A stretch of 64,000 nucleotides of DNA from Anaeromonas frigoriresistens (GTDB lineage: Bacteria > Bacillota > Clostridia > Tissierellales > SIT17): positions 1-64,000 of the forward strand of contig NZ_WSFT01000029.1 in the NCBI RefSeq assembly GCF_016820655.1, in the 5' to 3' direction. Shown here in pieces: positions 12,266 through 48,248 of the stretch. The notes beneath the pieces are model-generated. The model was not told the origin of the DNA. It ran no database searches and saw only the letters and a list, made by a program, of their open reading frames with translations. A program made the translations under genes and the position numbers. The number at the start of each line of letters is the position of its first letter. Position 1 is the stretch's first letter.

Positions 12266-12645
12266 TTAATAGTGCTTTTTCATGTTCATATATTCTTCGA
12301 CTATTCTCAATGTCTCTCCAAATCTTTGATAGTGAACAACTTCTCTTTCTCTTAGGAATTTTAAAGCATCTATAACTCCAGGGTCATCACTTAACTTAAT
12401 AAGATGTTCATAGGTAGCTCTAGCTTTTTGCTCTGCTGCCATATCCTCGTGTAAGTCTGCAATAGGATCATCTTTTGAGTTTATAAATGTAGCAGTCCAT
12501 GGTACGCCTGCTGCATTATGAGGGAATGGACTTTTACCATGATTAGCATAATGAGCTGCAAAAGGAGTACCTTTTATTTTATCGATTGGAGCATCCTTTG
12601 TAAGCTTATATACTATTGTACCTATCATTTCCCAATGGGCAAGTT
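12266..12645 (-). pseudogene. cotJC: cotJC 3' part: spore-coat manganese catalase cut by the prophage
   Basis: On the minus strand the frame reads EELAHWEMIGTIVYKLTKD and continues through HEDMAAEQKARATYEHLI and REREVVHYQRFGETLRI to a stop at 12266. This is the C-terminal two thirds of CotJC (Mn-catalase family), including the second-half metal ligands (AAEQ.AR..YE and E..H..RFGE). The true gene should have about 60 more residues upstream, but from about 12646 the sequence becomes phage DNA and an in-frame TAA appears. An internal ATG at 12628 could give a 120-residue remnant lacking the first metal ligands. The missing 5' sequence is found, decayed, at about 48278-48361. Confidence 0.85.
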
Positions 12646-12667
12646 CTTCTGAACGTAAAGGTTATCA
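12631..12667. other. Left attachment site (cotJC/phage junction)
   Basis: Host part GGGCAAGTTC (cotJC, minus-strand codons for EELA), then phage part ending in AGGTTATCA at 12659-12667. The octamer TTCTTCTG (12644-12651) matches TTCCTCTG at the right junction (48276-48283) with one mismatch. The crossover is probably in the TTC at 12644-12646, the centre of symmetry of the rebuilt attP. The recombinase gene ends 5 bp inside this site. Confidence 0.8.
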
Positions 12668-12671
12668 GTAA

Positions 12672-14219
12672 CTATTTATTTAATTTTAAATATAATTTCA
12701 ATTTAAACTCATCAGGGTTATTATGCCATCTTCCATTAACTATTTTAGTATATTCGACCTTCTCCAAAATTTCTTTTAATAGTCTATTTTTATCGGCAGG
12801 ATCTTTAAGGGTATCATATACCTCTATTATATTTTCTATTTTAGGGATTAATATTTCCTTGTTATTTTCTCTTTTTTTCTCAATTTCTATTTTGCTTAGC
12901 AGACCTTGTTTATCATTTTTATAGTTTTTAATCTTGTCTTTAATTAATATACTTCTCTTTATAAAAACATCTTTAGAATAAACTCCTTGCTCTAATAGAT
13001 CATGTAAATTATTAAGTTGTTTATTTAAGGTTTCTAATTCATTATCTATAATAGAAATAGATTTTTCTATAACTTCTAATTCTATATTCTCGCTTTTATT
13101 ATTTTCTAATTGTAATTCTAGTTTATATTTTTCTAACCATGTAGAAAGTGCTTGGATTAATTTTTCTTCTACCAAGTATAAATGTGAGCTTATATTATTG
13201 CAGGTTGGTCCAATACACATTAATGTATCCGGATAATCTCCTTTATGGGGCCTTCTATTCATTTTTCTACCACATAAACCACAAACTATTATCCCTACTA
13301 AAGGGTTTTTTAATTTATGTCTTGTAGGTACTGGAGGGGTAGAATTTTCTTCTAAATATCTTTGGGCTAAATTAAATATTTCTTCATCTACTATACCTGG
13401 ATGTAATCCATCTACAAGTATTATATTGTTATTTCTAGGTCTAGTTTTCTTTATTTCTCCATCTACTACTTGTTTTTTAATCGGCCTAGTATTCCATTTT
13501 ATTTTACCGATATAAACTGGATTTCTGATTATTGTTTGTATGGTGGATGTAGTCCAATCTCCACCACGAGAAGTGGGTATATTCATTTCATTTAACCTAT
13601 TGGCTATCATTTGTACTCCTATACGATTTGAACGAGTGTATAGGTCAAATATTAGCTTTACAATCTTAGCTTGTTCCGAATGGGGTTCTAGTGTATAGCC
13701 TTTTTGGCTTTCTAGTTTCTTTCTTTTATATCCATATGGAGCTATGCTGCCTAAATATTTTCCTTCTTTAACAGATTGGATTCTACCTTGCTGTAATCTT
13801 CTGTTTATAGTTTTATATTCTCTCCTAGACATGAATAAACCAAACTCAAAGTATTCTTCATCAAACTCATTATTTGGATCATAAGTTTTCATAGGAGTAA
13901 TAATTTTAGTGTTTGTATATTTAAAAGCTTGAGCAACTAATCCTTGATCCATAGTATCACCACGTGCAAGTCTTTCTACTTCTACTACAAGTACTCCATC
14001 CCATTTTCCTTGTTCTACATCTGAAAGCAACTCTTGCATAATAGGTCTAGATCTTATTGTTTCCCCAGATACCACTTCTCTATATATTTTATCTACTACT
14101 ATGTTCATTTTTTTAGCTAAGTCAAGCAAAATTCTCTCATGTCTTTTTAGAGTTTCACCTTCTCCTCTTGACTCTGCTTCTATATCTTTTCTACTTTTTC
14201 TTAGATACATGGCATACAT
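12672..14219 (-). CDS. Large serine recombinase (prophage integrase)
   Basis: 515 residues. Resolvase catalytic domain at 1-140 with the nucleophile Ser9 in YLRKSRKD and conserved VVEVERLARG. Recombinase domain about 165-290 (YGYKRKK, NRLNEMNIPTSRGGDW). Zinc ribbon about 310-345 (CGLCGRKM, then MCIGPTC). Coiled-coil plus C-terminal domain to the end. These enzymes recombine attP with attB without host factors and need a directionality factor for excision. No obvious directionality factor is seen, so it may be one of the small early genes. It lies next to attL, as usual. Confidence 0.95.
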   Translation of the reverse strand: MYAMYLRKSRKDIEAESRGEGETLKRHERILLDLAKKMNIVVDKIYREVVSGETIRSRPIMQELLSDVEQGKWDGVLVVEVERLARGDTMDQGLVAQAFKYTNTKIITPMKTYDPNNEFDEEYFEFGLFMSRREYKTINRRLQQGRIQSVKEGKYLGSIAPYGYKRKKLESQKGYTLEPHSEQAKIVKLIFDLYTRSNRIGVQMIANRLNEMNIPTSRGGDWTTSTIQTIIRNPVYIGKIKWNTRPIKKQVVDGEIKKTRPRNNNIILVDGLHPGIVDEEIFNLAQRYLEENSTPPVPTRHKLKNPLVGIIVCGLCGRKMNRRPHKGDYPDTLMCIGPTCNNISSHLYLVEEKLIQALSTWLEKYKLELQLENNKSENIELEVIEKSISIIDNELETLNKQLNNLHDLLEQGVYSKDVFIKRSILIKDKIKNYKNDKQGLLSKIEIEKKRENNKEILIPKIENIIEVYDTLKDPADKNRLLKEILEKVEYTKIVNGRWHNNPDEFKLKLYLKLNK

Positions 14220-41343: not shown

Positions 41344-41790
41344 ATGAGTAATATATCGATTAAATTAATAGCTACAGGTATTATAGGTTTTATAGCAGGA
41401 CTAATAGGAGGGTGGGATATGGTACTAGAAATACTTTGCATTTTAATTGTTGTTGATTATCTCACCGGGTTGGGAGTAGCTTTAAAGGAAAAGAAACTCA
41501 ATTCAAGCATAGGCTTTTTAGGAATTCTTAAGAAAGCTATGATTTTCTTAGTTTTAATTTTAGCAGCTCAATTAGATAGGATAACAAATAATCAAGCTAA
41601 TTTATTTAGAACTGCAACAGCTCTATTTTATATAAGCAATGAAGGTATAAGTATACTTGAGAATATAGGAAATATAGGAGTATCTTTACCGCCTTTCATT
41701 GTTAAAGTATTAGAGCAACTTAGAGAAAACTCTAGTAAAGGAATTATAGACGATATGAAAGAGAAGGTTAGAGAGGAAGGAGAGATATAA
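41344..41790 (+). CDS. Phage holin (TcdE/phage_holin_4_1 family)
   Basis: 148 residues with three hydrophobic helices. VDYLTGLGVALKEKKLNSSIGFLGILKKAMIFLVLILA is the hallmark of this holin family, and NEGISILENIGNIGVSLPPFI closes it. Opens the membrane at lysis time. Coupled to the endolysin gene by ATAATG overlap. Confidence 0.93.
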   Translation: MSNISIKLIATGIIGFIAGLIGGWDMVLEILCILIVVDYLTGLGVALKEKKLNSSIGFLGILKKAMIFLVLILAAQLDRITNNQANLFRTATALFYISNEGISILENIGNIGVSLPPFIVKVLEQLRENSSKGIIDDMKEKVREEGEI

Positions 41791-42968
41791 TGTTTAGTGT
41801 AAACAATACTACATTCGACCCAGGACATTATGCAGGAGCTAATATTGCTCCTCGTTGCTCCAATAGATACTCAGAGGGGGATAATATGTTACTCTTAGGA
41901 TTAGCGCTTAATAAAGAGTTTGGTAGTCCCCTTACCAGGTACAATGGTAAAGATGTAAGCTTTCCAAATAGAACAGCTATGGCCAAGAAAAATGGGAGCA
42001 AATATCTAGTATCTCTTCATACGAATTATCCAACTGATGGAGTAATATGTTTTATTTCTGTATCTAGGCCAGAAGATAAAATAGTAGCTGAGAAGATAGG
42101 CAAAACAGTAGCTAACAAACTAGGTATTCAATTTAGAGGGGTAAGAACTAGAAAAAACTCCTATGGCACTGACTACTATGGTATGATTAGAATTCCTCAG
42201 AGATATGGTATTCATGGAATTATAGTAGAACATGGTAGTCATAGAGAACACTGTTCTAATACAGACGAAAAAAGAAGATTAATTATTGAAGCATATCGAG
42301 AAGTATTTGAGGGGAAAACATCTACTAAAGATAATGGAATTAAAGAAAAATACAATAATGGTATTATAGATTTACCAGCTAAGGGATATTGGACCATTGC
42401 AGATAATGATAGAGAGATATCCTTTATGCAAGAAGAGTTGAATATCATAGGATATGAATTAGAGATAGATGGAAACTTTGGACCTAATACTTTAGAAGCA
42501 GTGAAAGAGTTCCAGGAATTTTATGATCTAGAAGTAGATGGTTATGTAGGTCCTAATACTGTAGAGAAAATTGGAGAAGTAGTTGAAGCGTTAGAAAAGA
42601 ATGGAATAATAGATTTACCAGGTAAAGGTTACTTCACTACTAAAGATGAAGGATACGAAGTAAAGCTAATCCAGCAAACTTTAAAAGAGATAGGATTTAA
42701 GTTAGTTGTGGATGGTATTTATGGGAGTGAAACAAGAGGAGCTATAAAATTATTCCAAGCTAAGTATGGACTAAAAGTTGATGGGTATGCTGGAAAAGAA
42801 ACTGTAAGAGCTTTAAATAATATTATCAAAGAAATCAATATTCCTACGAGAAGAGTAATTATTAATGGAGAGCAGATAGGGGCATTTAAGGTTACAGATA
42901 ATATAGTAGAACAAGTAAAAGAGAATTTAGACAAAGCAGATAAAATAGAAATAGAGAAAGTAGAATAG
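41790..42968 (+). CDS. Endolysin: N-acetylmuramoyl-L-alanine amidase with two peptidoglycan-binding domains
   Basis: 392 residues. Amidase_3 catalytic domain (about 5-175): zinc ligands in FDPGHYAG, YSEGDNM and SLHTN, catalytic Glu in IIVEHGSH. Two PG_binding_1 repeats, each opened by GIIDLPxKGY and containing LNIIGYELEIDGNFGPNT or LKEIGFKLVVDGIYGSET. C-terminal 60 residues form an extra small domain. Cleaves the amide between MurNAc and L-Ala. Confidence 0.92.
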   Translation: MFSVNNTTFDPGHYAGANIAPRCSNRYSEGDNMLLLGLALNKEFGSPLTRYNGKDVSFPNRTAMAKKNGSKYLVSLHTNYPTDGVICFISVSRPEDKIVAEKIGKTVANKLGIQFRGVRTRKNSYGTDYYGMIRIPQRYGIHGIIVEHGSHREHCSNTDEKRRLIIEAYREVFEGKTSTKDNGIKEKYNNGIIDLPAKGYWTIADNDREISFMQEELNIIGYELEIDGNFGPNTLEAVKEFQEFYDLEVDGYVGPNTVEKIGEVVEALEKNGIIDLPGKGYFTTKDEGYEVKLIQQTLKEIGFKLVVDGIYGSETRGAIKLFQAKYGLKVDGYAGKETVRALNNIIKEINIPTRRVIINGEQIGAFKVTDNIVEQVKENLDKADKIEIEKVE

Positions 42969-42998: not shown

Positions 42999-43186
42999 TT
43001 CATTTAAAGAGATTTAAAAATAATGGAATAGAATTATTAACGTTGACAACAATCAATAAGAAAATAGGGGTTTAAAATAAAAAATTAATTACTAAAGTGA
43101 GGGGTATAAAATAAATACATAAATTATTAAATACACTTCATATTTATATTAATAAAGTTGAAATATTTTAGAAGAAGGTGTATAAT

Positions 43187-43939
43187 ATGACTAAGAAAAT
43201 AGGAGGAATATGGAAAAAGAGGGAGAGAATTATAATGGGAGAGGTTTTAACATTACATACTTGGAATGAATCATACTTAAACAGCTTTAAAAATAAATGG
43301 GATTTATTTTTTATGAAATTAGTTACAAAGAGAGTATCTAGACTTCGAAGGATAAATAATGACTTACAAAATAATATTATGAGTTTCTGTGAAAAATCTA
43401 ATAATATTCATGGCCCAAATTTAATTAAAGTGAATAATGGTCTAGGAGAAATTTTAGCTGAATTAGAAAAAGAAGGAATTAAAGATATATACTTAGAATC
43501 AATAACTAATTTAGAAAATGTATTAGATGAAGTTCAAATGAATTTGCTAAAAGTTAAGAAAATGATTCATAAACCAATTTATAAAGATATAAAAGAAAAG
43601 AGATTGTCTAGTCTTATTAATCAAACAAACAGAAATATAAATATAATTTTAGAAATTAGAGATAAAATAGATAAAATAGATAATATTACTCATGATAAAC
43701 GCTTTCAGGTAGAAGTAAATAAGAAGTATAATAAAAATAAAAAAATACTATTAGCTCTAAGTTTTAGCTTTCTTATTATTAGTTTCTTTAACTTTGATTT
43801 CTTACCGGCAATTATATCTATTGGCACCTCTTTAATGTGTTTTATAGCTTATATAGGTATTTATGTTAATAGAAGTTATATATGTAAAGAGCTTATGAAT
43901 ACCTTTAACAATGATTTATGTCAGGATACTAGGGGTTGA
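43187..43939 (+). CDS. Unknown prophage membrane protein with helical cytoplasmic domain
   Basis: 250 residues from ATG 43187, with AGAAGGTG upstream. Residues 20-180 are helical and charged (SRLRRINNDLQNNIMSF, NLENVLDEVQMNLLKVKKMI); two hydrophobic helices near the C-terminus (ILLALSFSFLIISFF and IISIGTSLMCFIAYIGIYV). No family recognised. It overlaps the frame of the next membrane gene and sits beyond the lysis genes, where lysogenic-conversion genes often lie. Confidence 0.6.
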   Translation: MTKKIGGIWKKRERIIMGEVLTLHTWNESYLNSFKNKWDLFFMKLVTKRVSRLRRINNDLQNNIMSFCEKSNNIHGPNLIKVNNGLGEILAELEKEGIKDIYLESITNLENVLDEVQMNLLKVKKMIHKPIYKDIKEKRLSSLINQTNRNINIILEIRDKIDKIDNITHDKRFQVEVNKKYNKNKKILLALSFSFLIISFFNFDFLPAIISIGTSLMCFIAYIGIYVNRSYICKELMNTFNNDLCQDTRG

Positions 43940-43944
43940 TTTTT

Positions 43945-44316
43945 GTGACTGAAGAATCTAAGGATAACTCTCAAACACAAGGTAAGATTAACGCTTTTTT
44001 TGGAGGAACAGGAGATTTAATAAATCATACAGGGGATTATGCACAAAAGACTAATGCTACCTCTATAATGAGCTTTAGTATGTATATATTTTTAATATAT
44101 GCTGTTCTAATATGTGCACTTGCCCTTATACCAGGAGACAATCTACCTAAATATGTAGCTATGGGAATTGTATCGGTAGTATTGTTAATTATATTTATAA
44201 TGAATTTGAGCCATCATAAACAAACTTATATACTTGAGCATAGACGGGAGAAGAAACTAAAAGAAAAAGAATCCTCTGTTTTAGTTAATAAGAATATTTT
44301 AGCGGAAATTGATTAA
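43945..44316 (+). CDS. Unknown small prophage membrane protein
   Basis: 123 residues from GTG 43945, with AGGGG upstream; TTG 43936 is possible. Cytosolic-like N-terminus (TEESKDNSQTQGKINAFFGGTGDLINHTGDYAQKT), two membrane helices (about 45-95) and a basic tail. Paired with the preceding gene, so the two may form one membrane complex. No family recognised. Confidence 0.6.
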   Translation: MTEESKDNSQTQGKINAFFGGTGDLINHTGDYAQKTNATSIMSFSMYIFLIYAVLICALALIPGDNLPKYVAMGIVSVVLLIIFIMNLSHHKQTYILEHRREKKLKEKESSVLVNKNILAEID

Positions 44317-44372: not shown

Positions 44373-44401
44373 TTTACACCGAACGTTTGTTCTGATATAA
44401 T
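44373..44401 (+). promoter_or_regulatory. SOS promoter with LexA (DinR) box
   Basis: TTTACA (44373-44378), 17-bp spacer, extended -10 TGATATAAT (TATAAT 44396-44401). The spacer contains CGAACGTTTGTTC (44380-44392), matching the Gram-positive LexA box core GAACnnnnGTTC. A second half-site, ATGTTCGG, follows at about 44415. The operon at 44432-45171 should be induced by DNA damage. Confidence 0.8.
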
Positions 44402-44431
44402 TTAATAAAAATATATGTTCGGGGTGATATT

Positions 44432-44671
44432 ATGGTTGATCATGAATTAAAGTATTCTCTTCAAAATCATAAAATAATTTCTATTATGTATATGAAAGGA
44501 TTAGAGATAACACAAAGAAGAATACAGGTATTAAAAATAGATAAAGGTATTATTAAAGCTTTAGATATAGATAAACAAGCTATAAGAACTTTCAAAAAAG
44601 AAAATATATTAGCAGCAATGAACATGACTATAATTAATGAAAGTAGAAGTGGAAAACATGAGAGTTATTAA
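44432..44671 (+). CDS. Short WYL-like protein of an SOS cassette
   Basis: 79 residues. ITQRRIQVLKIDKGIIKALDIDKQAIRTFKKENILAA matches the compact WYL-like proteins encoded beside Y-family polymerases (UvrX/DinB) in Firmicutes SOS cassettes. WYL domains sense ligands or nucleic acids. First gene under the LexA-box promoter. Here the polymerase gene is missing. Confidence 0.7.
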   Translation: MVDHELKYSLQNHKIISIMYMKGLEITQRRIQVLKIDKGIIKALDIDKQAIRTFKKENILAAMNMTIINESRSGKHESY

Positions 44672-44918
44672 TAAATCAGTTGATATGATTGCTATATTTA
44701 ATAAAGATGGAACTATCCGGCCATGGAAATTTAAGTTTGATAATGGAGATGAAGAGATCAAAATCAAAGTAGATACTCTTCAATTTTCAGATAAGATTAA
44801 ACATTGTGGTCGGATTATACATACATATAGATGTCAGTCAAATATTAATAATACACTAAGAGTTTATGAATTACATTACATAGGAGATAAAATGGAATGG
44901 TATTTATACAAGATATAG
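44658..44918 (+). CDS. Companion protein of the WYL-like SOS gene
   Basis: 86 residues from ATG 44658 (ATG 44637 also possible). RVINKSVDMIAIFNKDGTIRPWKFKFDN and IHTYRCQSNINNTLRVYELHYIGDKMEWYLYKI match the small beta-rich protein that usually follows the short WYL protein in polymerase cassettes. Overlaps it by 14 bp, so they are translated together. Function unknown. Confidence 0.65.
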   Translation: MRVINKSVDMIAIFNKDGTIRPWKFKFDNGDEEIKIKVDTLQFSDKIKHCGRIIHTYRCQSNINNTLRVYELHYIGDKMEWYLYKI

Positions 44919-44931
44919 AGGGGGATAAATT

Positions 44932-45171
44932 ATGCTTACTAAAAAACAATTAGTAGTATTAAAAGGGATAGATGATCTAATAAAAGAAAATAAATATAGT
45001 CCTACTGTTAGGGAAATTGGAGAAAAGGTTGGATTAAAGTCTTCAAGTTCAGTTCATACTTATATTAAGAAATTAGAAGAAAAAGGGTGTCTTAGTAAGG
45101 TAGAAGCTTCAGGGAGATCACTTGTGATTACTGAAAGAGGACAAATGGCATTGAAGTTAATCAATAATTAA
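44932..45171 (+). CDS. LexA DNA-binding-domain protein lacking the peptidase domain
   Basis: 79 residues covering only the LexA winged helix: LTKKQLVVLKGIDDLIKENKYSPTVREIGEKVG then LKSSSSVHTYIKKLEEKGCLSK, closely like the first 70 residues of LexA. The Ala-Gly cleavage site and the Ser-Lys peptidase domain are absent, so RecA cannot trigger self-cleavage. It is third in an operon controlled by a LexA box. It could repress that box constitutively, compete with host LexA, or act as an autoregulator. Confidence 0.82.
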   Translation: MLTKKQLVVLKGIDDLIKENKYSPTVREIGEKVGLKSSSSVHTYIKKLEEKGCLSKVEASGRSLVITERGQMALKLINN

Positions 45172-45173
45172 AC

Positions 45174-45196
45174 CAGGATATTAATCCTGCTCTTTT
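45174..45196 (+). terminator. Short terminator of the SOS cassette
   Basis: CAGGAT/ATCCTG stem, then CTCTTTTATT. The following 170 bp to the next gene hold no gene. A near-palindrome TTTCAAATTGAAA at 45256-45268 could be an operator. Confidence 0.55.
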
Positions 45197-45366
45197 ATTA
45201 ATAGAATTATATAATAAATTCTAGATAATTTAGAAAATTAAAAGGGAAAATCAAGTTTCAAATTGAAATTAATATGTAACTCTATAAAAGATATTAAGAT
45301 ACTAACTTTTTCAATAAGTAAAATATATAACTGACAAGTTAACTATATTTTTAGGAGGAGTCTGAT

Positions 45367-46410
45367 TTGAAAGAAATAAAAAATTACATAGATAAAACTA
45401 TAAGGTCAGGTAATAAGCCAAATCTAAAGATGTTTATTTATTTGATAAGTCTGACTGAGACTTTTGAAGAAGTATTAGATATTGCTGAATATTTACAGTC
45501 ATTGGGTTTTACATTAGGAAAAAAAAAATATAACTGGATGTTGGCATTAGTAGAATCATACGATGATGCTAAAACAATAATCTCAGCCATGAAGAAAAAG
45601 AGGGTGAATATAGATATAGAAAACTACTTGAATTTTGTGAATACTGCTGAAAATAGTTTTCAGGTTAGACAAATTATTAATGATATGGAAATAAACAATA
45701 TAGAAACCGTTCCGGCAATATACGCTAGATTACTATGGGTACAAGACTCATATGATAATGCAAGAAAGATTTTAGATGAAGTAAAACAAAGTGGATTAGA
45801 GCCCTTCATTATGTATTATATCTTATTAAGTACCGCACAGTGTGAAAATGAAGTGAGAGAAGTAATTGATGATCTGAAAATGATAGGAAGAGAATTTGAT
45901 ATTGAAGATTATTATAGATTTGCATATAAAAACAGACGAGACATTGTAAAGTTAACGAGAGAGAGTTTAAGGAGAAATTATAAACCAAGTAATTATGAAG
46001 ATTTATATGAATATAAAAAACAGGACAAGTTATCAAAAAAAAGACAACAAATAATAAATGTTACAAGACGTGATTATGTTATCGTAAATTATTTAAAAGA
46101 GATATATAATAATTCGTGTCAAGTGTGTGGAATTAAACTTAGTCTAGGAAATGATATCTATTACTCAGAAGTGCATCATATTAAACCACTGTCATGTAAT
46201 GGCCCTGATATTCTTGAAAATATGTTAGTTCTTTGCCCGAATCATCATAAGCTATTTGATAGAGGGGCAATAACTATTAATATAGAGAATAAAAAGGTTA
46301 TTCATATTGATGCTAAAAACAACATAAATACATTAAGCTTGACTTTGAAACATAAGGTTGATAAAAGTTATGTTAATTATCATAATTATAATATACTAAT
46401 AAAAGTGTGA
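45367..46410 (+). CDS. PPR-like 32-residue helical-repeat protein fused to an HNH endonuclease
   Basis: 347 residues from TTG 45367, after TTTAGGAGGAG. Residues about 18-185 form five or more helix-turn-helix repeats with an exact 32-residue period: aromatic positions F23, Y55, Y87, Y119, Y151, Y183; small positions V36, A68, V100, A132; turn positions 47, 79, 111, 143, 175. The pattern (Y-x-x-L-L, A-x-x-I/L, D/E-x-x, G-x-x-P) resembles pentatricopeptide repeats, but the unit is 3 residues shorter. Residues about 245-300 are an McrA-type HNH: Cys251, Cys254, EVHHIKP (His270/271), Cys290 and His293/294. I infer a nuclease steered by a nucleic-acid- or protein-binding superhelix; defence is likely. 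No known family was recognised for the fusion. Confidence 0.72.
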   Translation: MKEIKNYIDKTIRSGNKPNLKMFIYLISLTETFEEVLDIAEYLQSLGFTLGKKKYNWMLALVESYDDAKTIISAMKKKRVNIDIENYLNFVNTAENSFQVRQIINDMEINNIETVPAIYARLLWVQDSYDNARKILDEVKQSGLEPFIMYYILLSTAQCENEVREVIDDLKMIGREFDIEDYYRFAYKNRRDIVKLTRESLRRNYKPSNYEDLYEYKKQDKLSKKRQQIINVTRRDYVIVNYLKEIYNNSCQVCGIKLSLGNDIYYSEVHHIKPLSCNGPDILENMLVLCPNHHKLFDRGAITINIENKKVIHIDAKNNINTLSLTLKHKVDKSYVNYHNYNILIKV

Positions 46411-46483
46411 ATCATATAAAAATCAAAGGGAAAACCAACTATCTGTCTTATACATATAATAATACATAAAATGGAGGGATATT

Positions 46484-46684
46484 ATGGGGGTAAAAAACAG
46501 ATTAGAAGAGATAAGGTTACAAAAGGGATATAAGTTCCAGAAAGATTTTGCTGAGTTTTTGGAGTTAAGTCAATACCAATATAACCGATATGAAAGAAAT
46601 GAAAGGCAACCTTCCTTAGAAATTTTATTAAAGATATCAGATAAATTAAATATGGATATAAAAGATATTGTATACCTAGATTAA
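46484..46684 (+). CDS. XRE-family HTH regulator
   Basis: 66 residues: NRLEEIRLQKGYKFQKDFAEFLELSQYQYNRYERNERQPSLEILLKIS is a complete Cro/CI-type helix-turn-helix. GGAGGGATATT upstream. It stands before a control region with 19-bp direct repeats and the FtsK/replication-relaxation genes, which it probably regulates. Confidence 0.85.
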   Translation: MGVKNRLEEIRLQKGYKFQKDFAEFLELSQYQYNRYERNERQPSLEILLKISDKLNMDIKDIVYLD

Positions 46685-46699
46685 TCTAGGTATTTTTTT
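46673..46699 (+). terminator. Terminator overlapping the HTH gene end
   Basis: TACCTAGATTAATCTAGGTA is a perfect palindrome followed by T7. It starts inside the last codons of the gene. Confidence 0.85.
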
Positions 46700-46871: not shown

Positions 46872-47704
46872 ATGAAGAAGGAGAAGGGTGGATTATTTGA
46901 AATAGGAATGAGTTCAGTGGTTATACATTAAATGGATTACAATTATTAGATCTAGTAAAAGGGGTACATTTATTAATTGCTGGTGAGACTGGATCAGGGA
47001 AGTCTACATTACTAAGAAGTATAATCACCAACCTAATACTAAATGGAAAGTACAATAGATATGAATTACATCTAATCGATTTAAAAAATGGAGCTGAATT
47101 TAATGTATTTAGGAAGAGTAAATATGTAAAATCTTTCTCTAGGACTATAGAGGATGCTGAAAAGATACTAAATAAATTAATTATAGAAGTTGATGATCGT
47201 TATGATAAGTTCTTTAAAAATGATTGTGTAGATATCCAGGAATATAATAAGAAATACAGATCTAAAATGAAATATAAGATTATAATTATTGATGAATTTG
47301 CAGATTTACAAAATGAAAAAGATAGTATACAGATATTAGAGACTCTTGCAGCTAAGGCTAGAGCATGTGGAATACATTTAATTATTTCCACTCAAAGACC
47401 AGATGCTAAAGTTCTAAATGGAAGAATAAAAGCTAATGTACCTTCAGTTATTGGATTAAAAACTATGAATGAAATAAACAGTAGAATAATAATAGATCAT
47501 TCGGGACTGGAAGAATTAAAAGGTATGGGCCATGGGATATATAAATTTGATAAGGAGATAGAATTCCAAAGTATGAATATCTCCTCAGGAACTGCTAGAG
47601 ATTTAATTAAGCATACATATATTAATAAAAAGGAAGAAAATAAACCTAAAAATACTGGGGAATTGCCTAAAGATTTCACTATAGGTGATTTCAATGGTAA
47701 CTGA
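46872..47704 (+). pseudogene. FtsK/SpoIIIE-like DNA translocase, frameshifted near its 5' end
   Basis: ATG 46872 has a perfect ribosome site (GGGAGGATGTAT) and begins MKKEKGGLFEIG, but the frame stops at the TAA near 46930. In the neighbouring frame the protein continues without a start codon: NEFSGYTLNGLQLL, Walker A LIAGETGSGKSTLLRS, LIDLKNGAEF, then Walker B YKIIIIDEFADLQ, STQRPDAKVLNG and the stop at 47704. One missing base at about 46910 explains both. A downstream ATG at 47267 would give 145 residues without Walker A. Either a real loss or a sequencing error. FtsK-like ATPases beside replication-relaxation genes occur on plasmids and integrative elements. Confidence 0.78.
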
Positions 47705-48248
47705 TAGAGATAGAAAAGTTATAGAATTTATTGAAAAATTTAATGTAGCCACAACAAATATAGTAGCTGAATTATTTTACCCCTCTCTAAGAGTAGCTCA
47801 AAATAGATTAAAGAGGTTAACAGAAGATAAGGTTCTTAAAAGAGATAGAGATCACTTTACTAATCAATATCTCTATTATTTAAAGAAACCTAAACAACTG
47901 AATCACTGTCTATTATTAGTTGAGTTTTATCAAAAGGTTAGTAAATATGTAGATATAGAATATTATGATAAGGAAGTTACTATAGAAAATTTAAGAGCAG
48001 ATGGATTGATGATCTATAGGTATAGGAGTAAAAAATATATAGCATTTATAGAAGTACAAATATCTAATATTCCAGTAGATATAGATAAGTATAGGAAATT
48101 ATATCTATCTGAGAAATATAAAAAGTACTTCCCTGTATTTCCTAAATTAATAGTGATAAGTAATAAAAAGATGCCTGATAATCAGGATTTTAAAATAATA
48201 AAAATATCAGAGGATCTTAATAATATCCAGGATATAATTCCTTCATAG
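47694..48248 (+). CDS. Replication-relaxation family protein
   Basis: 184 residues from ATG 47694 (GTG 47685 possible), overlapping the FtsK-like gene. N-terminal winged helix (TDRDRKVIEFIEKFNVATTNIVAELFYPSLRVAQNRLKRL), then a nuclease-like fold with ADGLMIYRYRSKKYIAFIEVQISN. Replic_Relax proteins were named from plasmid replication in Gram-positives. Last gene before attR. Confidence 0.8.
   Translation: MVTDRDRKVIEFIEKFNVATTNIVAELFYPSLRVAQNRLKRLTEDKVLKRDRDHFTNQYLYYLKKPKQLNHCLLLVEFYQKVSKYVDIEYYDKEVTIENLRADGLMIYRYRSKKYIAFIEVQISNIPVDIDKYRKLYLSEKYKKYFPVFPKLIVISNKKMPDNQDFKIIKISEDLNNIQDIIPS

Follow-up and report, generated by a model that had tools for sequence, protein, structure and literature searches.

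A PPR-like α-solenoid fused to an HNH nuclease domain in a prophage of Anaeromonas frigoriresistens

Introduction

Pentatricopeptide repeat (PPR) proteins, with which plants and other eukaryotes read RNA in their organelles, form a large family that bacteria almost entirely lack. An initial annotation of a 64,000-nucleotide stretch of Anaeromonas frigoriresistens DNA (the window; positions 1 to 64,000 of contig NZ_WSFT01000029.1), made from the sequence alone, described a protein in which exact 32-residue PPR-like repeats are followed by a complete HNH nuclease centre, and placed its gene in the cargo zone of a prophage beside an SOS cassette. This description raises two questions. Is the N-terminal part of this protein really related to PPR proteins, and what would such a solenoid do in front of a nuclease carried by a phage?

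Results and Discussion

Gene and overall architecture

The gene at 45367–46410 (+) is an intact open reading frame of 347 codons with a TTG start, and is present in a single copy in its own 3.2-Mb genome. Its features are as follows.

45355–45362, +: ribosome-binding site (AGGAGGAG region), read directly upstream of the TTG start
45367–46410, +: PPR-like solenoid/HNH nuclease fusion gene, 347 aa, an ORF with a full-length homologue in L031
45424–45975, +: six PPR-like helical hairpins, residues 20–203, capped by helix 2–13 (periodicity, profile matches, predicted helices, structural matches)
45976–46065, +: probably flexible linker, residues 204–233 (pLDDT <50 at residues 204–225)
46066–46407, +: HNH nuclease domain, residues 234–347 (PF13391 at 1e-10, alignment with TagI, superposition with Z 16.9)

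The structure was predicted with AlphaFold2 from 19 sequences, giving a mean pLDDT of 82.5 and a well-defined HNH domain; this model replaced one from two sequences in which much of the HNH domain lay under pLDDT 50. Six hairpins (residues 20–45, 53–77, 84–109, 116–140, 146–172 and 179–204) follow the capping helix. Both halves were thus predicted, superposing on PPR proteins and on TagI, respectively, and the profile comparison places the N-terminus with the PPRs and the C-terminus with the TagI HNH. The fusion proposed initially is therefore borne out by profile matches and predicted structure together, and the protein is almost certainly a PPR-like α-solenoid joined to an HNH nuclease. Two outcomes had been named beforehand as telling against it, a prediction lacking a solenoid and an assignment of the N-terminus to a nuclease family already described; neither was encountered.

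The N-terminal solenoid resembles PPR proteins

Within residues 15–214 the self-similarity is strongest at a lag of 32, followed by a lag of 64, and across all lags of 20–45 none of 5000 shuffles attained the height of the lag-32 peak. The tandem, degenerate helix-turn-helix repeats of about 35 residues that make up the PPR fold are represented by six hairpins over residues 20–203, with spacings of 31–32. The anchor aromatics F23, Y55, Y87 and Y119 are spaced by exactly 32 residues, as had been claimed. The two that were said to follow at 151 and 183 are Y150 and Y182 in helix register (each position being one of a YY pair), with spacings of 31 and then 32, and repeat 4 is accordingly 31 residues long. 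The exact period thus holds for repeats 1–4 and lapses thereafter. It does not extend to the homologue P0002 either, in which the anchors lie at 23, 56, 92, 124, 157 and 191 (spacings of 33, 36, 32, 33 and 34). Since the spacings of the homologue range from 32 to 36, the regular 32 is a trait of this copy and not a rule of the family.

A profile built from this protein and P0002 (A1) was searched against all PDB sequences with hmmsearch. It matched designer PPRs at 2.7e-14 and the natural maize protein PPR10 at 1e-7, over profile positions 7–179 or about five repeats, and P0002 alone matched the designer protein cPPR-Telo1 at 1.8e-9. The curated Pfam cut-off for PPR was not reached (PPR_3, 18.4 bits against 25), and the domain is called 'PPR-like' here because this sub-threshold score points to a divergent, short-repeat variant. 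The Foldseek and VIA-align lists for the predicted model are filled by PPR proteins. The solenoid superposes on solved PPRs with Z values of 12–14 (designer PPRs about 14, PPR10 12.4, PRORP1 12.2), of which values up to about 13 may be generic among helical repeats, the sequence profile being in independent agreement. Among the VIA matches to the N-terminus, PPR was the only family to stand out, which leaves room for other families.

In common with the P-class PPRs (maize PPR10 and the designer dPPR/cPPR proteins), this solenoid has tandem helix-hairpin repeats, a superhelix and profile matches of 1e-7 to 2.7e-14. In contrast to them, its repeats are of ~32 residues, with about three residues absent from helix A or the turn, its code residues are mostly non-canonical, and its host setting is a bacterial prophage instead of an organelle. 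The protein-only RNase P (PRORP) likewise joins a PPR solenoid to a nuclease, and its PPR part is the one superposed above as PRORP1; however, the nuclease of PRORP is an unrelated metallonuclease, and PRORP is a eukaryotic RNA enzyme.

A resemblance to lipoyl synthase (NCBIfam, 1e-5, residues 70–175, window positions 45574–45891) was also noticed and was dismissed as due to chance, being absent from the homologue. LipA matches turned up in the genome and plasmid searches as well.

The HNH domain belongs to a group of restriction endonucleases

The C-terminus matches HNH_2 (PF13391) in Pfam at 1e-10. The zinc ligands are C251, C254, C290 and H293, and the catalytic residues are H271, N285, H294 and D298; the complete centre read initially (C251, C254, H270/H271, C290, H293/H294) is indeed there, together with N285 and D298. 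The best solved relative by profile is TagI (9e-16), followed by EcoKMcrA and VcaM4I. The predicted HNH domain superposes on TagI with Z 16.9 and 1.8 Å over 109 residues at 37% identity. The catalytic residues of TagI are His229, Asn245, His254 and Asp258 (PMC6212794), and these correspond by motif to H271, N285, H294 and D298. All residues characteristic of the TagI/McrA group, namely H-N-H, a downstream Asp and the zinc ligands, are thus present. The nuclease half is a member of the TagI/McrA/HHPV4I group of restriction-endonuclease HNH domains, an assignment that the initial annotation had missed.

This protein shares with TagI (SRA-HNH, PMC6212794) and EcoKMcrA the HNH fold, the catalytic H/N/H with the downstream Asp and the zinc site. 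The difference lies in front of it: in TagI an SRA domain reads 5mC/5hmC, whereas here the PPR-like solenoid occupies that place. No modified-base reader of the kind expected of a type IV enzyme (SRA, EVE, SBD or the N-terminal McrA type) was found in the Pfam and NCBIfam scans. The best NCBIfam match, over residues 180–319, is NF045808 (9.2e-17), which represents the phosphorothioate-dependent HNH enzymes of the ScoMcrA/SprMcrA group; its score of 61.1 bits falls short of the curated cut-off of 180, and no sulfur-binding domain was matched. PADLOC 2.0.0 returned no full-length system match and only weak matches to the HNH part, the best being mREase_IV at 3e-7 over residues 231–297.

Homology extends to an HNH domain encoded by the archaeal virus HHPV4 (tblastn, 4e-5), and the protein concerned is HHPV4I. 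This is a characterised virus-borne restriction endonuclease, which loses its activity on H296A, N310A or H319A substitution (PMC10101028). HHPV4I (SRA-wH-HNH, PMC10101028) resembles the present protein in being a virus-borne nuclease with a reader and a homologous HNH domain, and differs from it in its wH/SRA readers, its m6A target and its archaeal virus.

Profile searches of Bacillota and plasmids uncovered HNH relatives with other N-termini. That of L055 is SRA-like (SAD_SRA 5e-6, below the cut-off) and that of L062 shows a weak EVE match, while those of L054, L056, L057, L058, P0003, P0004 and P0005 are unassigned. Judged from these sequences, the HNH domain is a cutting module common to proteins whose readers can be exchanged, the PPR-like solenoid being one more such reader. 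As a separate observation, the HNH proteins at L054:1474-3000, L056:123-1556 and L051:1960-3420 have long N-termini that look tyrosine-recombinase-like by eye, with nothing convincing in Pfam; they are possibly an undescribed reader-HNH fusion.

A second copy and the rarity of the fusion

Among the 249 genomes of the order there is one full-length match at the level of a homologue, P0002 (372 aa, L031), in a genome of another family. It is 39% identical to the present protein over residues 2–343. The identity is 32% in the solenoid, 56% in the HNH domain and 74.5% in the HNH core, and these conservation statistics are thin since only two full-length members are known. The gene of P0002 lies about 60 bp from an amidase gene, near the amidase/holin lysis genes of a different prophage, and adjoins a SocA_Panacea gene.

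Protein or profile searches that covered some 1,250 different Bacillota genomes revealed no third full-length copy, and none of 50,697 phage and 72,556 plasmid records gave a match covering 80% of either protein; a search of the phage and plasmid records with the solenoid alone returned nothing credible. Short-pattern scans of genome and viral contigs, which reach close relatives only, found no full-length relative. The statement that PPRs are rare in bacteria agrees with the counts, Pfam PPR_2 exceeding its cut-off in 0 of 245 genomes from the class and in none of 14 controls. Neither a PPR-HNH protein nor a PPR-based phage defence was found in the open-access literature.

Code residues and possible ligand of the solenoid

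In RNA-binding PPRs, Lys13 contacts the phosphate, and its position falls in the stretch that is missing from these short repeats. The PPR code, consisting of the 5th and last positions of each repeat, was taken from PMC11094755. Only one of the five readable repeats has a canonical pair (repeat 2, N56/D83), and the sole canonical pair of P0002 is in the fifth repeat (T158/D187); hence neither homologue has the canonical pairs in most repeats that a code-following RNA-binding PPR would show. Between the two copies the code positions differ (position 5 is identical in one of six repeats) and the structural aromatic is kept.

The scarcity of canonical pairs, the code positions not being shared and the missing Lys13 stretch together make canonical RNA reading doubtful. 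To judge from these residues, the two copies either read different targets or bind in a non-canonical manner, and RNA-guided reading seems possible but is not favoured by the code residues. Single-stranded DNA may be a ligand, given that the ssDNA-bound designer PPR cPPR-Telo1 is among the top matches. The net charge (31 K+R against 35 D+E) was considered as an argument against nucleic-acid binding and dropped, as the consensus of the designer PPRs likewise shows, by a hand count, a slight excess of acidic residues.

Prophage setting and the cargo slot

The gene is placed after the lysis genes (amidase, 41790–42968) of a prophage with a serine integrase at 12672–14219. Its surroundings contain the following features.

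44373–45171, +: SOS-type cassette, a separate transcription unit (LexA box 44381–44392; LexA-DNA-binding-domain protein 44932–45171)
45174–45189, +: terminator-like hairpin closing the SOS-type cassette and separating it from the fusion gene
45193–45293, +: left-hand flank of the exchangeable slot for cargo, with 74% identity in the sister species G536
46455–46684, +: right flank of the slot with an HTH_3 regulator gene (46484–46684), kept in G536 and more distantly in G611
46672–46693, +: terminator-like hairpin after the HTH_3 regulator
46872–48248, +: degraded FtsK/SpoIIIE gene and Replication-relaxation gene, a conserved distal module of related prophages

In G536 both flanks are kept, with HTH, FtsK and Replication-relaxation genes on the right, and an unrelated 296-aa gene lies between them. 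Matching flanks around an unrelated gene indicate an exchangeable cargo slot. In G614, the corresponding zone of a related prophage, from the lysis genes to the FtsK module, contains a PDC-S02 candidate defence gene. The prophage cargo position claimed initially is thus upheld by the lysis-gene neighbourhood and the exchange in G536, and the lysis-gene/prophage neighbourhood of both copies of the fusion gene indicates cargo of a temperate phage in each case. The HTH gene at 46484–46684 was considered as a dedicated controller or antitoxin and rejected, since it is kept in G536 without the fusion gene.

The adjoining SOS cassette was likewise recovered. Its promoter holds a perfect LexA box (GAAC-N4-GTTC) within the -35/-10 pair and drives three small genes, the last of which encodes a LexA DNA-binding domain (PF01726, 4e-16) without the peptidase.

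Several other observations were made around this locus. The occupant of the slot in G536 (L097:6238-7128, -) has no family match over cut-off and is a candidate cargo gene, and the FtsK/SpoIIIE gene at 46872–47704 is degraded relative to the intact 404-aa copy in G536 (L097:4529-5743). Two overlapping genes at 43178–44316, after the amidase gene, encode probable membrane proteins; the second has a weak PADLOC match to PycTM (5.6e-4) and may be a small membrane effector. No methyltransferase was noticed when the prophage ORFs were read by eye. Serine integrases use short cores, and no direct repeat marking the prophage ends was found. The spore-coat gene cotJC is in two parts, the C-terminal one (12269–12658, -) adjoining the integrase gene and the N-terminal one (C53:66054-66212, -) lying 53 kb off, on the far side of a second serine recombinase (C53:63463-64899). 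The presence of host-like genes between the two parts indicates that the region is more than one clean prophage.

Proposed function and alternatives

We favour, with a probability of about 0.58, the interpretation that the gene encodes a prophage-borne, single-gene restriction-type nuclease that has a divergent PPR solenoid as its reader and is used against competing phages. We infer the nuclease step from the intact catalytic and zinc residues and the close structural likeness to TagI; a role in keeping rival phages out of the lysogen agrees with the location of the gene in an exchangeable slot at the distal end of the prophage. As a TagI-group HNH, the nuclease domain probably forms a dimer and uses a metal ion to nick or cut DNA. 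The flexible linker would tether it to the solenoid, which is positioned where relatives bear an SRA/EVE modified-base reader. The solenoid would be the targeting part, binding some mark of an invading replicon, most likely a single-stranded nucleic acid (RNA or ssDNA) and less likely a protein, and this binding would bring the nuclease to foreign DNA. A narrower version is offered tentatively: the short-repeat solenoid may read single-stranded nucleic acid of the invader (a transcript, an R-loop or a replication intermediate) repeat by repeat and direct the HNH domain to its DNA, which would make the protein a naturally modular PPR targeting system of prokaryotes, with a reader that diverges faster than its nuclease.

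Other explanations deserve consideration. The solenoid might bind a transcript and the HNH domain cut either that RNA or the DNA under transcription, in a PRORP-like manner. PPRs are known as RNA binders, PRORP1 is included among the head structural matches, and PRORP exemplifies the PPR-nuclease fusions of eukaryotes. This mechanism is nevertheless rather unlikely, because the code residues are mostly non-canonical and unshared between the homologues, no Rfam match was found around the gene, the upstream folding signal is modest (z -1.85), and HNH domains of the TagI group act on DNA (PMC6212794). The unspecific code residues would suit a toxin or abortive-infection effector, in which the solenoid senses a phage protein and releases an HNH domain that degrades all cellular DNA. 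TPR-like α-solenoids do sense phage proteins, the homologue adjoins the antitoxin-like SocA_Panacea gene, and the location in the cargo zone would be fitting; but the fold searches returned PPR rather than TPR-like proteins, and the retention of the adjacent HTH gene in G536 without the fusion gene speaks against that gene as a dedicated antitoxin, so that we regard such an effector as improbable.

Nor does it seem probable that the protein is a free-standing homing or mobility endonuclease, which would carry its slot from prophage to prophage and bind DNA through the solenoid. HNH proteins are commonly homing enzymes, the slot is exchanged between prophages, and the N-terminus of the HNH relative P0005 looks LAGLIDADG-like by eye. 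However, the closest HNH relatives of known function are restriction enzymes, the same slot is used by other genes, and there is neither an intron or intein nor an interrupted conserved gene. It is very improbable that the gene is a decayed or neutral passenger: for all its rarity and the degraded FtsK gene in its neighbourhood, its frame is intact, a ribosome-binding site and a complete active site are present, and the HNH core retains its 74.5% identity to the copy in another family.

Implications

Judged by the collections and papers searched, this would be the first protein to combine PPR and HNH domains. If the solenoid does target the nuclease, as the favoured restriction-type reading holds, a repeat-protein reader would join the SRA/EVE/SBD set of HNH restriction enzymes, the protein would be a natural scaffold of small size on which a programmable nuclease could be built, and its presence in a bacterial prophage would have a bearing on the origins of PPR proteins.
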